Origin: Thermoleophilia bacterium | GTDB taxonomy: Bacteria > Actinomycetota > Thermoleophilia > Gaiellales > Gaiellaceae | Direction: 5' to 3' | Assembly: GCA_017882605.1 (NCBI GenBank) | Contig: JADGPE010000001.1 | Location: forward strand, 18,554 to 82,553 | Length of the DNA stretch: 64,000 bases | In this document: positions 8,469 through 64,000 of the stretch, in pieces | How positions within the stretch are numbered: position 1 is the first letter of the stretch | Layout: each line of letters begins with the position of its first letter | Position numbers and translations under genes: made by a program | Notes under the pieces: model-generated | The model's input: the letters and a program-made list of their open reading frames with translations, nothing else | What the model was told of the DNA's origin: nothing | Databases searched by the model: none

Positions 8469-9919
<1,451 letters not shown>

Positions 9920-9927
9920 CTAGCCAC

Positions 9928-9957
9928 GTCTCGTGGTCAGACCAAACATGACGGAAG
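9928..9957 (-). repeat. Intergenic palindromic motif, copy C
   Basis: CTTCCG-N6-TTGGTCTGACCACGAGAC on the minus strand; core TGGTCAGACCA at 9934-9944. Confidence 0.8.
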
Positions 9958-10018
9958 GGAAAGATTCTCCCCACAGGCCGTTGAGCAGGGAGCTTCGTCC
10001 GCGAGACGTGGCCTTAGC

Positions 10019-10041
10019 TGACCAGACCCTTGGTCAGACCA
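10019..10041. repeat. Intergenic palindromic motif, copy D (compound)
   Basis: TGACCA-GACCCT-TGGTCA-GACCA; core TGGTCAGACCA at 10031-10041. Confidence 0.7.
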
Positions 10042-10073
10042 CGGTGACGAGACGCGCGCGTTCGATCCACAGG

Positions 10074-11000
10074 TCACAGGATCAGCATCGCATCGCCGAA
10101 GGAATAGAAGCGGTAGCGCTCCTCGATCGCCAGGGCATACAGGCGCCGGGTCTCCTCCACCCCCGCGAACGCCATCACGAGAGCGAGCAGCGTGGAGCGC
10201 GGAAGATGGAAGTTCGTCAGGAGCTGGTCGACGCGGCGGAACGTGAAGCCGGGCGTGATGAAGAGGTCCGTGCGGCCGGCGGGCGGCGCGCCGCCCGCAA
10301 GCGACTCGAGGACACGCACGGTGGTCGTGCCGACTGCGAGCACGCGCGGCGCCGCGCGGATCCGCTCCCACGCCGAGGGCTCGACCGAGTAGCGCTCGCC
10401 GTGCATGCGGTGCGTCTCGACGAGCACCTCCTGCAACGGCCGGAACGTGTCGAGACCGACGTGGAGCGTCACCCGCTCGACATCGAGTCGCGCGAGAACG
10501 ACCGGCGTGAAGTGCAGCCCAGCCGTCGGCGCAGCGGCCGAGCCGCGGTTGCGCGCATAGACGGTCTGATACCGCTCCGCGTCGTCGAGCGGCTCGGTGA
10601 TGTACGGCGGCAGCGGCACGTCACCGTGCGGCTCGCCCTCCAGCCGTACACGCCAGCGTCCCTCGCCGAGATGCTCGAGCAGTTCCACCGCGCCGTGACG
10701 GTCGCCCGGGCGCAGCTTTCGCGTGGGGCGCGCGAGCGCCTCCCACACGTCCCCGTCGACCTGTTCGAGGAGGAGCACCTCCCCGCGCGGCCGCTCGATC
10801 GGGATGCGCGCCGGGACGACACGGGTGTCGTTCACAACGGCGAGAGCATCGACCAGATCCGGCAGATCACGGAATACGTGGTGCGTGACGTCACCTGTCG
10901 AGCGGCGGTAGACGAGCAGACGCGACTGGTCGCGTTCAGCCGCCGGATGCTGAGCGATCAGCTCCTGCGGCAGGTCGTAGTCCAGCTCACGGGCCTCCAT
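10074..11000 (-). CDS. queA: tRNA preQ1(34) S-adenosylmethionine ribosyltransferase-isomerase
   Basis: LDYDLPQELIAQHPAAERDQSRLLV, TAGLHFTP, MHGERYSVE, FNFHLPRSTLL-like; start reset to ATG at 11000. Confidence 0.94.
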   Translation of the reverse strand: MEARELDYDLPQELIAQHPAAERDQSRLLVYRRSTGDVTHHVFRDLPDLVDALAVVNDTRVVPARIPIERPRGEVLLLEQVDGDVWEALARPTRKLRPGDRHGAVELLEHLGEGRWRVRLEGEPHGDVPLPPYITEPLDDAERYQTVYARNRGSAAAPTAGLHFTPVVLARLDVERVTLHVGLDTFRPLQEVLVETHRMHGERYSVEPSAWERIRAAPRVLAVGTTTVRVLESLAGGAPPAGRTDLFITPGFTFRRVDQLLTNFHLPRSTLLALVMAFAGVEETRRLYALAIEERYRFYSFGDAMLIL

Positions 11001-61103: not shown

Positions 61104-62252
61104 ATGCCAGAAGCCGTGATCGTCTCAACTGCGCGCACGCCGATCGGCCGCGCCGGCAAGGGCTCGCTCGTCGACGCCCGTCCCGACGACCTCGCCGCGT
61201 TCGCGGTCGATGCAGCGCTCCGGCAGGTACCGGAGCTGCCGCGGCAGGAGATCGTCGACGTGCTGATCGGCTGCGGCTTCCCGCAAGAGCGTCAGGGAAT
61301 GAACCTGGGCCGGCGCGTCGCGCTGCTCGCCGGGCTGCCGGAGACCGTGCCGGGCACGACAGTCAACCGCTTCTGCGCCTCGAGCCTGCAGACGATCCGC
61401 ATGGCGTTCCACGCGATCAAGGCCGGCGAGGGTGAAGCGTTCGTCGCTGGCGGCGTCGAATCGACCTCACAGGTGAGCGGGTACCCGAAGTCCGAGGAGG
61501 AGCTCCACCCCGCGCTCTTCGGCGACGACGCACCGATCGCGAACGTCTACATCCCGATGGGGCTGACGGCCGAGAACGTCGCCGAGCGCTGGGATGTCTC
61601 CCGCGAGGACATGGACCGGTTCGCTCAGCAGTCGCAGGAGCGTGCAGTCGCCGCACAGGATTCGGGGTTCTTCGCCCGCGAGATCACGCCGTACAACGGT
61701 GTCGAGGCGGACGACGGGCCGCGGCGGACGTCCACCTACGAAAAGCTTGCCGCACTCGACCCGGCGTTCAAGCCGGGCGGCAAGGTCACGGCCGGCAACG
61801 CCTGCCCGTTGAACGACGGCGGCGCTGCGGTCGTCGTCATGTCGGCGGGTCGCGCGGCCGAGCTCGGGATCAAGCCGCGCGCACGCATCCTCGCGTCGAG
61901 CGTCTCCGGCGTCGAGCCGGAGATCATGGGCGTCGGCCCCATCGAGGCGGTGCGCAAGGTGCTCGCGCAGGCCGGAATGACGATCGGCGACGTCGACGTG
62001 GTGGAACTGAACGAGGCGTTCGCGGCCCAGGTGCTGCCCGTCTGCCGCGAGCTCGGCGTCGACCCCTGGAGCGACAAGCTCAACCCGCACGGCGGCGCGA
62101 TCGCAGTCGGCCACCCCTACGGCATGACCGGGGCACGGATCATGAGCACGCTGCTCAACGACCTCGAGACGATGGATCGGACGATCGGCCTCGAGACGAT
62201 GTGCGTGGGCGGCGGCCAGGGCATGGCGATGCTCGTGGAGCGGCTGAGCTAG
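61104..62252 (+). CDS. Acetyl-CoA C-acyltransferase (thiolase)
   Basis: VNRFCASSLQTIRMAFHAI; NEAFAAQVLPV; NPHGGAIAVGHPYGMTGARI; CVGGGQGMAMLVE. Confidence 0.95.
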   Translation: MPEAVIVSTARTPIGRAGKGSLVDARPDDLAAFAVDAALRQVPELPRQEIVDVLIGCGFPQERQGMNLGRRVALLAGLPETVPGTTVNRFCASSLQTIRMAFHAIKAGEGEAFVAGGVESTSQVSGYPKSEEELHPALFGDDAPIANVYIPMGLTAENVAERWDVSREDMDRFAQQSQERAVAAQDSGFFAREITPYNGVEADDGPRRTSTYEKLAALDPAFKPGGKVTAGNACPLNDGGAAVVVMSAGRAAELGIKPRARILASSVSGVEPEIMGVGPIEAVRKVLAQAGMTIGDVDVVELNEAFAAQVLPVCRELGVDPWSDKLNPHGGAIAVGHPYGMTGARIMSTLLNDLETMDRTIGLETMCVGGGQGMAMLVERLS

Positions 62253-62254
62253 TC

Positions 62255-63094
62255 CTGAGCGCGCTCGCGCTCGTCCTCGCGCTCGGCTCCTCGATCGTCT
62301 GGGGCGCTGCGGACTTCTCCGGCGGCTCGCTGACGAAGCGTTTCCCGGCGTTCGCGGTCACGGTCGTCTCGCAGGCGGCGGGCTTCGTCGCGCTCGTCGT
62401 CGCCGTCGCGCTCCGCGGCGACGTGGGCGGACGCTCGTTCACGCTCGGTCTACTCGCGGGCGTCGGCGGCGGCGCGGGGCTCGCGGCGTTCTATCGCGCC
62501 CTGTCGCTCGGGACGATGAGCGTCGTCTCGCCGGTCGTCGCGTGCGGGGCCGTCCTGCCGTTCGGCATCTCGATCGCCACGGGCGAGCGGCCTTCGACCC
62601 TTGCGCTCGCAGGTGCGGCCGCCGCGCTCGGCGGCGCCGTGCTCGCATCGGTGGAGGAGCGGCGCGCGGCAGCGCCCGAACGGTCCCGCGCGATCGCACT
62701 GGCGGTGGTCGCCGCGGTCGCGCTCGGCCTCTTCGTCTACTTCCTCGGTCTCGGCAGCCGCCACGGCGACGCGCTCTCGACGTTGTTCGGGGCACGCGTC
62801 GGGTCGCTGGCCCTGCTCGTCGGCGTCGCTTCCGCGCGACGGGCGCCGTTGCGTGTTCCCCGGCCGGCGCTCTTTGCGGTCACCGCCGTCGGCCTCGCGG
62901 ACGTGACGGCGAACATGCTCTTCGCGTTCGCCGCAGGGCGCGGGCTGCTCGCCCTCGTCTCGGTGCTCGGCTCTCTCTATCCCGTCGTGACCGTCGTGCT
63001 CGCCCATGTCCTGCTCGGCGAGCGCCTGACCCGCACCCAGCAGGCGGGGGTCGCGATCGCCCTGACCGGCGTGGCCGCAATCGCCGGCGGGTAG
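62255..63094 (+). CDS. EamA/DMT-family transporter (probable CTG start)
   Basis: SALALVLALGSSIVWGAADFSGG; two EamA repeats; LLALVSVLGSLYPVVTVVLAHVLLGERLTRTQQAGVAIALTGV. Confidence 0.88.
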   Translation: MSALALVLALGSSIVWGAADFSGGSLTKRFPAFAVTVVSQAAGFVALVVAVALRGDVGGRSFTLGLLAGVGGGAGLAAFYRALSLGTMSVVSPVVACGAVLPFGISIATGERPSTLALAGAAAALGGAVLASVEERRAAAPERSRAIALAVVAAVALGLFVYFLGLGSRHGDALSTLFGARVGSLALLVGVASARRAPLRVPRPALFAVTAVGLADVTANMLFAFAAGRGLLALVSVLGSLYPVVTVVLAHVLLGERLTRTQQAGVAIALTGVAAIAGG

Positions 63095-63116
63095 CTCCTG
63101 TGGAACGTTCGTGACA

Positions 63117-63146
63117 CTTCCGGAGATCTTGGTCTGACCACAAGAC
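63117..63146 (+). repeat. Intergenic palindromic motif, copy A
   Basis: CTTCCGGAGATCTTGGTCTGACCACAAGAC; core 63130-63140. Confidence 0.85.
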
Positions 63147-63215
63147 ACGTCTCGGAGGGCGGAGGTCGATCGAAGCCCAGGGCCGGATCGAGGGGCGATG
63201 GAGTGTCTTGTGGCG

Positions 63216-63245
63216 CTTCCGTAACCTTTGGTCTGACCACAAGAC
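63216..63245 (+). repeat. Intergenic palindromic motif, copy B
   Basis: CTTCCGTAACCTTTGGTCTGACCACAAGAC; core 63229-63239; flanked by GTCTTGTGG at 63205. Confidence 0.85.
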
Positions 63246-63273
63246 AGGTCTCGCCGCGGCCCGTCCGGAGGGG

Positions 63274-63930
63274 TCAGTCGCGCTCGTCGAGCCACGGCTT
63301 CAGCTCCGCCCACAGGTGCTCCATCGTCGTCGTCCGCGCTGGGTGGAGCGGGTCGTACGGGATGTAGTTGACCGTACGGACGATCCACGTGCCGTCGGCG
63401 CCGAGATCGAGCACGTTGATGCACGCCGGCGCCTGCTCGAACGCTCCGAAATAGGCGCGACCCCCTGCGAGTGCGTGCGAGAGCAAGATGCGGTTCACAC
63501 CGCCGTGGAAGACGGCGAGCGCCGTCTCCCATTCCCGGGCCACAAGCTCAGCGAAGGCCGGGAGCACCCGGTCGAGCGCCTCGCCGAGCGCCTCGCCACC
63601 GAGAAACCGCGCCGCCTCGTCCCGAACCTGAAGCGAGCCGACGAAGAGCTCCTCGAGCTCCTCCCGAGGAACGTCGTCCAGGCGCCCGCCGCGCCACTCG
63701 TCGAATCCGGGCAACTGCTCGGGCGAGCTGTCGGGAACGACGACCGCCGCCGTCTCGAGCGTGCGCGGCAGCCGGCTCGCGACCACCAGATCGAAGGTGA
63801 CGTCGTCGAGCGCACGGTGCGCGGCGGCCGCCTGCTCGAGCCCGCGTTCGGTCAAGCGCACGACCTCCGGGTCGCGCTCGCCGACATACGAGACCTCGGC
63901 ATGCCGCATCAGGTAGAGCCGCCGGCGCAT
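63274..63930 (-). CDS. Histidine phosphatase family protein
   Basis: RLYLMRHAEVSYVG; VVASRLPRTLETA; GFDEWRGG; AVFHGGVNRILLSHAL. Confidence 0.9.
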   Translation of the reverse strand: MRRRLYLMRHAEVSYVGERDPEVVRLTERGLEQAAAAHRALDDVTFDLVVASRLPRTLETAAVVVPDSSPEQLPGFDEWRGGRLDDVPREELEELFVGSLQVRDEAARFLGGEALGEALDRVLPAFAELVAREWETALAVFHGGVNRILLSHALAGGRAYFGAFEQAPACINVLDLGADGTWIVRTVNYIPYDPLHPARTTTMEHLWAELKPWLDERD

Positions 63931-63949
63931 GGTGCGTAGCATCGCAGCG

Positions 63950-64000
63950 ATGGCCGACAAGCCCCCGCTGATCGTCGAGGAGAACGTCGAGGCGTTCCTC
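63950..64000 (+). CDS. N-terminus of an unidentified CDS, truncated at window end
   Basis: MADKPPLIVEENVEAFL..., TAGCAT-N7-ATG. Confidence 0.5.
   Translation, partial: MADKPPLIVEENVEAFL

Follow-up and report, generated by a model that had tools for sequence, protein, structure and literature searches.

Paired REP/TIR-like repeat units in a Thermoleophilia genome and apparent in-place turnover of their hairpin cores in step with the resident transposase

The window analysed in this study, a stretch of 64,000 nucleotides from a Thermoleophilia genome (G000; 2.1 Mb, 109 contigs, 82.6% complete), contains two copies of a repeat unit between the ends of two convergent genes, a DMT-type transporter ORF and a phosphoglycerate-mutase-like (PGM-like) ORF (Table 1). 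The cores of both units, TTGGTCTGACCA, are direct copies 99 bp apart, and the right end of unit 2 is the PGM-like stop codon. A preliminary description of this DNA had reported the paired cores at about 63130 and 63229, their location between two 3′ ends, and the arrangement CTTCCG-N6-TTGGTCTGACCACAAGAC followed by ACACGTCTCG or AGGTCTCG in both copies, all of which was found as stated. It had also noticed the same unit 53 kb away between queA and tgt; this pair was recovered on the reverse strand (about 9915-10075) with a spacing of 97 bp there versus 99 bp at the PGM-DMT locus.

Table 1. Positions of the repeat units and neighbouring features in the window.
Feature	Position	Strand	Details	Basis
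Unit 1	63098-63167 (right end approximate)	+	CTGTGGA...CACTTCCG; core TTGGTCTGACCA at 63129-63140; right flank ..AGACACGTCTCG	Copy alignment; consensus flanks common to other loci and species
Unit 2	63196-63273	+	CGATGGA...CGCTTCCG; core TTGGTCTGACCA at 63228-63239; right flank ..AGACAGGTCTCGCCGCGGCCCGTCCGGAGGGG	Copy alignment; orthologous single unit in G008
9-bp inverted repeat	63205-63213 / 63237-63245	+	GTCTTGTGG / CCACAAGAC around core 2; locus-specific
DMT-type transporter ORF	62201-63094	+	Stop 63092-63094; 3′ end adjoins unit 1	ORF list; putative family from sequence appearance
PGM-like ORF	63274-63960	-	Stop 63274-63276; 3′ end adjoins unit 2	ORF list; orthologues in genus
queA-tgt pair, first (L) unit	10012-10075	-	Core 10031-10042; begins directly at queA stop codon; no counterpart in G008 orthologue
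queA-tgt pair, second (R) unit	9915-9978	-	Core 9934-9945; abuts tgt start codon; no counterpart in G008 orthologue

The cores and partial flanks seen initially proved to belong to a larger unit of about 70 bp, which spans from CTGTGGA to GTCCGGAGGGG. Nine near-matches to the core were present in the window against 2.2 ± 1.5 expected, a number reached in 0 of 100 shuffles. A 64-position profile, built from the four window copies themselves, scored 72, 64, 61 and 34 at these copies; no other place in the window exceeded 2.8. The perfect stem described around the second copy is real, and its CACAAGAC arm is present also in the G008 orthologue, but the stem is not conserved across the family copies; it is peculiar to this locus and was rejected as a family feature.

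The initial suggestion of an unannotated RNA, i.e. a structured RNA or 3′-UTR element transcribed across the intergenic region, was not supported. Conserved dyads, the adjoining stop codons and, at some loci, the same orientation as the upstream gene would fit such an element; against it, no Rfam match was obtained, neither strand folded better than its shuffles (z −1.0 to +0.95), the right-hand dyad was 72% paired versus 70 ± 1.5% in shuffles with no covariation above shuffles, the enclosing stem is unconserved, and close species differ in whether a given gene pair carries the element. We thus consider an RNA extremely improbable.

Genome-wide, exact TGGTCTGACCA cores (core A) occurred 11 times in G000 against about one expected, at six loci comprising four pairs, one single copy (contig C42) and two copies flanking the gene of a Y1 (RAYT-type) transposase on contig C88. 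Fixed-core patterns were used, so that all copy counts refer to exact cores and degenerate copies are undercounted. Searches for exact 12-mers gave 10 matches versus none for the reversed control pattern. All pairs are in direct orientation, with spacings of 97 and 99 bp in the window, 98 bp on C56 and 111 bp on C96, and the two copies on C88 lie 651 bp apart. Beyond the core, the aligned copies share the consensus CTGTGGA-nn-GTTCGT-nn-CACTTCCG ... core ... GGGAC-nn-G-C-CG ... GTCC. With six loci in G000 and further ones in its sister species, direct pairs for the most part, the dispersed two-part repeat family suggested earlier was corroborated, as opposed to two unconserved loci. On C56 (L008, 1480-1660), an in-frame ATG (MSETIRPQG...) lies inside the element and is a possible start of a downstream glycosyltransferase-like gene, so that this gene may take its start codon and initial residues from the element. 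Contig C103 (5299-5457; L166) has a further 3′ fragment of queA, diverged in sequence, after which comes an unrelated gene, pointing to contamination or strain mixture in the draft genome.

Pairs of near-perfect palindromes could also be operators, i.e. binding sites of a transcriptional regulator. Core A has the right size and type for this, and TGGTCTGACCA presumably resembles the sites of FadR-subfamily GntR regulators, e.g. LldR or PdhR. However, the PGM-DMT copies have a gene's 3′ end on either side, conservation extends beyond the core over about 70 bp, two copies flank a transposase gene, and in sister species the core is replaced wholesale, in step with the transposase-flanking hairpin. 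Operators are therefore very improbable, in line with the earlier opinion that a promoter-operator role was unlikely.

The transposase ORF on C88 (L004:937-1548) encodes a protein of 203 aa matching Y1_Tnp (PF01797; E 3.6e-8). It is flanked by two direct unit copies, and the coding sequence overlaps at its 3′ end with one of the flanking cores. Its sequence contains an HUH motif (ENHHHLLIQL) and a candidate catalytic tyrosine (MRYVPINPV), and comparison with TnpA-REP of E. coli (4er8) gave an E value of 1e-4. With the NCBIfam model for REP-associated tyrosine transposases (NF047646; cut-off 80 bits), the G000 protein scored 67.9 bits, below the cut-off, and its relative in G005 86.6 bits, above it. 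Y1_Tnp was the sole Pfam match of the 203-aa protein at E ≤ 0.001; a C-terminal HTH domain (Bac_DnaA_C or similar) was absent from the Pfam matches. Five Y1 ORFs are present in G000, and only the one on C88 is flanked by the core, the other four being without it. A scan of genome contigs with the transposase as query found no relative.

Among 151 genomes searched for exact matches, core A was multi-copy only in G000 (10), G005 (20) and G008 (5), all members of one genus; a few others contained one or two scattered matches. The closest relative of the C88 transposase, from G005 (67% identity), is flanked by cores 650 bp apart, giving a flanked transposase in two species. Another core, GTCGCCAAACGAC (core B), was first met with the same flanks at the PGM locus of G002, and was then found flanking the transposases of G002 and G001, as predicted from that locus; its 15-nt form was multi-copy only in G001-G004 (5, 13, 13 and 3 copies). 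A third core, GGTGCCAGGCACC (core C), flanks the transposase of G010, is multi-copy in this genome and forms the core of its queA-tgt element. For these three core types, the abundant hairpin of a genome is the hairpin flanking a transposase of the same genome, and the transposase tree shows grouping by core. Each of cores A, B and C forms a 13-nt hairpin whose stem has 5 bp and whose loop reads CAR on the transposase-sense strand. Exceptions to this matching are core C in G001, G008 and G011 as well as GGGGTCAGACCCC in G005 and G010, which fall outside the assigned core-transposase pairs. G008 has core A, but its assembly (81% complete) yielded no close transposase; the genus is represented mostly by fragmented draft genomes.

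Some further observations were made in these genomes. Among relatives from the same order (G094, G103 and G097), GGGGTCAGACCCC reaches 82-261 copies in some genomes, and inverted pairs of it 40-100 bp apart are frequent in others; these are large TIR-type families. At queA-tgt of G005 (L155), a second palindrome, AGGTGTCAGACACCT, lies beside the core A pair and is of the type flanking the G019 transposase. A contig titled Burkholderiales bacterium (JAICUZ010000041.1; L179) carries a tgt gene 84% identical to that of this Thermoleophilia-like genome and is probably from a mislabelled MAG. The named genomes whose tgt is closest are MAGs of uncultured Thermoleophilia/Actinomycetota.

In RAYT (TnpA-REP) systems, a Y1 HUH transposase is flanked by short hairpin copies which are dispersed between genes, often in pairs, and each core tracks its own transposase (PMC2817692, PMC3116915, PMC8266576). 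The enzyme recognises a folded single strand, which is cut and joined by the catalytic tyrosine (PMC8266576). RAYTs with REP/BIME/REPIN repeats (groups 2 and 3) and the family described here have in common the flanked transposase, with a Y1_Tnp HUH domain and REP-type signature, and dispersed, extragenic, often paired hairpins with cores tied to the cognate transposase, apart from the copy overlapping the transposase 3′ end. Differences are the direct orientation of the units (flanking units in G000 and G005, flanking cores in G002 and G001) versus inverted REPs, and a hairpin preceded by GTCCC or GTCTC (on the other strand ..AAC or ..ACC) with no GT[AG]G head. Also, the 13-nt CAR-loop hairpin lies inside a unit of about 70 bp, and tens of copies are present instead of the hundreds known for REPs. 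TIRYT/TIRtron systems (TnpA-Y1 subclass 2.1) have inverted repeats of the form GGGG[AT][CG]A[CG] and transposases with HTH domains (PMC3733652, PMC6006769). These likewise combine a Y1 transposase with flanking palindromic repeats of which further copies lie at other genomic sites, and GGGGTCAGACCCC of the same-order relatives (up to 261 copies) fits the GGGG motif. Core A (TTGGTCAG; TTGGTCAGACCAA) does not fit it; the core itself is self-complementary, whereas the units around it are direct and not terminal inverted repeats, and no C-terminal HTH domain was found by Pfam in the C88 protein. IS200/IS605 elements and their non-autonomous derivatives resemble the family by same-orientation hairpins at both ends of the transposase gene and by the clean empty queA-tgt site described below, but the C88 protein matches the REP-type model and no multi-copy full-length element is present in G000. 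As the family departs from the defining features of both canonical RAYT/REP and TIRYT systems, we take it as a variant within the RAYT/TIRYT class. Its architecture of direct repeats seems to stand between the ends of IS200/IS605 elements and paired REPs.

It is highly probable that the feature in the window consists of two REP/TIR-like, non-autonomous mobile units in tandem, substrates of a RAYT/TIRYT-class Y1 (HUH, IS200-like) transposase, and the family appears to be moved by the matching single-strand DNA transposase encoded on C88. By analogy with the biochemistry of IS200/IS605 and TnpA-REP, this enzyme would recognise the folded single strand via the 13-nt hairpin, and its catalytic tyrosine would cut and rejoin next to it. 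As single-stranded DNA the core folds with z of about −2 (short sequences, G000 and one sister genome). Pairs may arise through insertion beside existing copies or through tandem duplication. The core-flanked transposases, the matching of abundant cores to them and the empty queA-tgt site in G008 speak for mobile units; a copy number that is low for an active family, the score of the G000 protein below the NCBIfam cut-off, and core A in G008 with no close transposase found speak against them. Given the low copy number and sites shared by descent between G000 and G008, this reading does not extend to present-day mobility.

At four orthologous loci, the element occupies the same or nearly the same junction, and its core differs from species to species. 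The queA-tgt junction holds core A in G000 and G005, core B in G001-G004 and core C in G010. G008, the sister of G000 (99/97 support), has the clean empty sequence ATCCTGTGAGCC there, and G007, G009, G011 and G012 have no element at this junction. GTGA is at most a candidate target-site duplication, since the overlap of stop and start codons in the empty site confounds the comparison, as it does for cleavage and guide sequences. In G001 (L138/L158), the junction has expanded to a tandem array that repeats about every 142 bp and contains GTCGTTTGGCGAC and decayed cores. At PGM-DMT, G000 has two A units, G008 one A unit, G002 core B and G003 a mixed array of three; G011 has no element there. Two sequences of this locus in G003, L106 and L144, were rejected as evidence of dispersal; they share their coding flank and are therefore probably one locus present twice in the draft, and their small differences suggest an assembly from heterogeneous strains. 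Upstream of alaS, G000 carries an A pair and G003 a B pair at the same junction ACGCTCCACAGGGCGTCCGTACACTGTTCG, and only about 16 nt of the element are left in G008. At purA-mobA, core A is found in G000 and G008 and somewhat further away in G005, G003 has core B with one mismatch, and G002 a degenerate copy.

Old, immobile REP-like repeats kept at gene ends for a host role, e.g. termination, mRNA stability, or binding of a nucleoid protein or gyrase, are an unlikely explanation, though one that is compatible with a mobile origin. The units are indeed extragenic and beside stop codons, and the PGM and mobA sites are common to G000 and G008; few copies, patchy presence and losses in sister species argue against this role.

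Regarding the units as mobile, two histories would account for the differing cores. Units with different cores may have been inserted independently at the same hot spots, with no core change in place. Every shared site lies just 3′ of a gene, Y1 enzymes select targets by sequence, and several species are without the element, which makes this a real possibility, although we lean against it. It does not readily explain the spacer GGTGCAAnnnCCCTGC, which at queA-tgt is common to A-type (G005) and B-type (G002, G003, G004) pairs and occurs at no other fetched locus, G000's own spacer being too diverged to add weight. The alaS junction, identical in G000 (A), G003 (B) and the 16-nt G008 remnant, and the hybrid B-A'-B tandem arrays of G003 also argue against independent insertion. 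We tentatively propose, at somewhat less than an even chance, that the repeat family renews in place, units at fixed junctions being re-cored to the hairpin of a new transposase while flanks and spacer are kept. A new core family would enter old arrays by insertion, and recombination between direct repeats would drop the old units; alternatively, conversion by the enzyme may be the route. Hairpin-core turnover would thereby be apparent in place and in step with the resident transposase.

The pairs of TGGTCTGACCA call for caution, as those of such kind may be misread as operators or RNAs. With this family, REP/RAYT systems reach into an uncultured lineage of Thermoleophilia. The family's orthologous sites, empty or with core A, B or C, form natural sets that make the spread of REPs, and the switching of their specificity with the transposase, traceable locus by locus.
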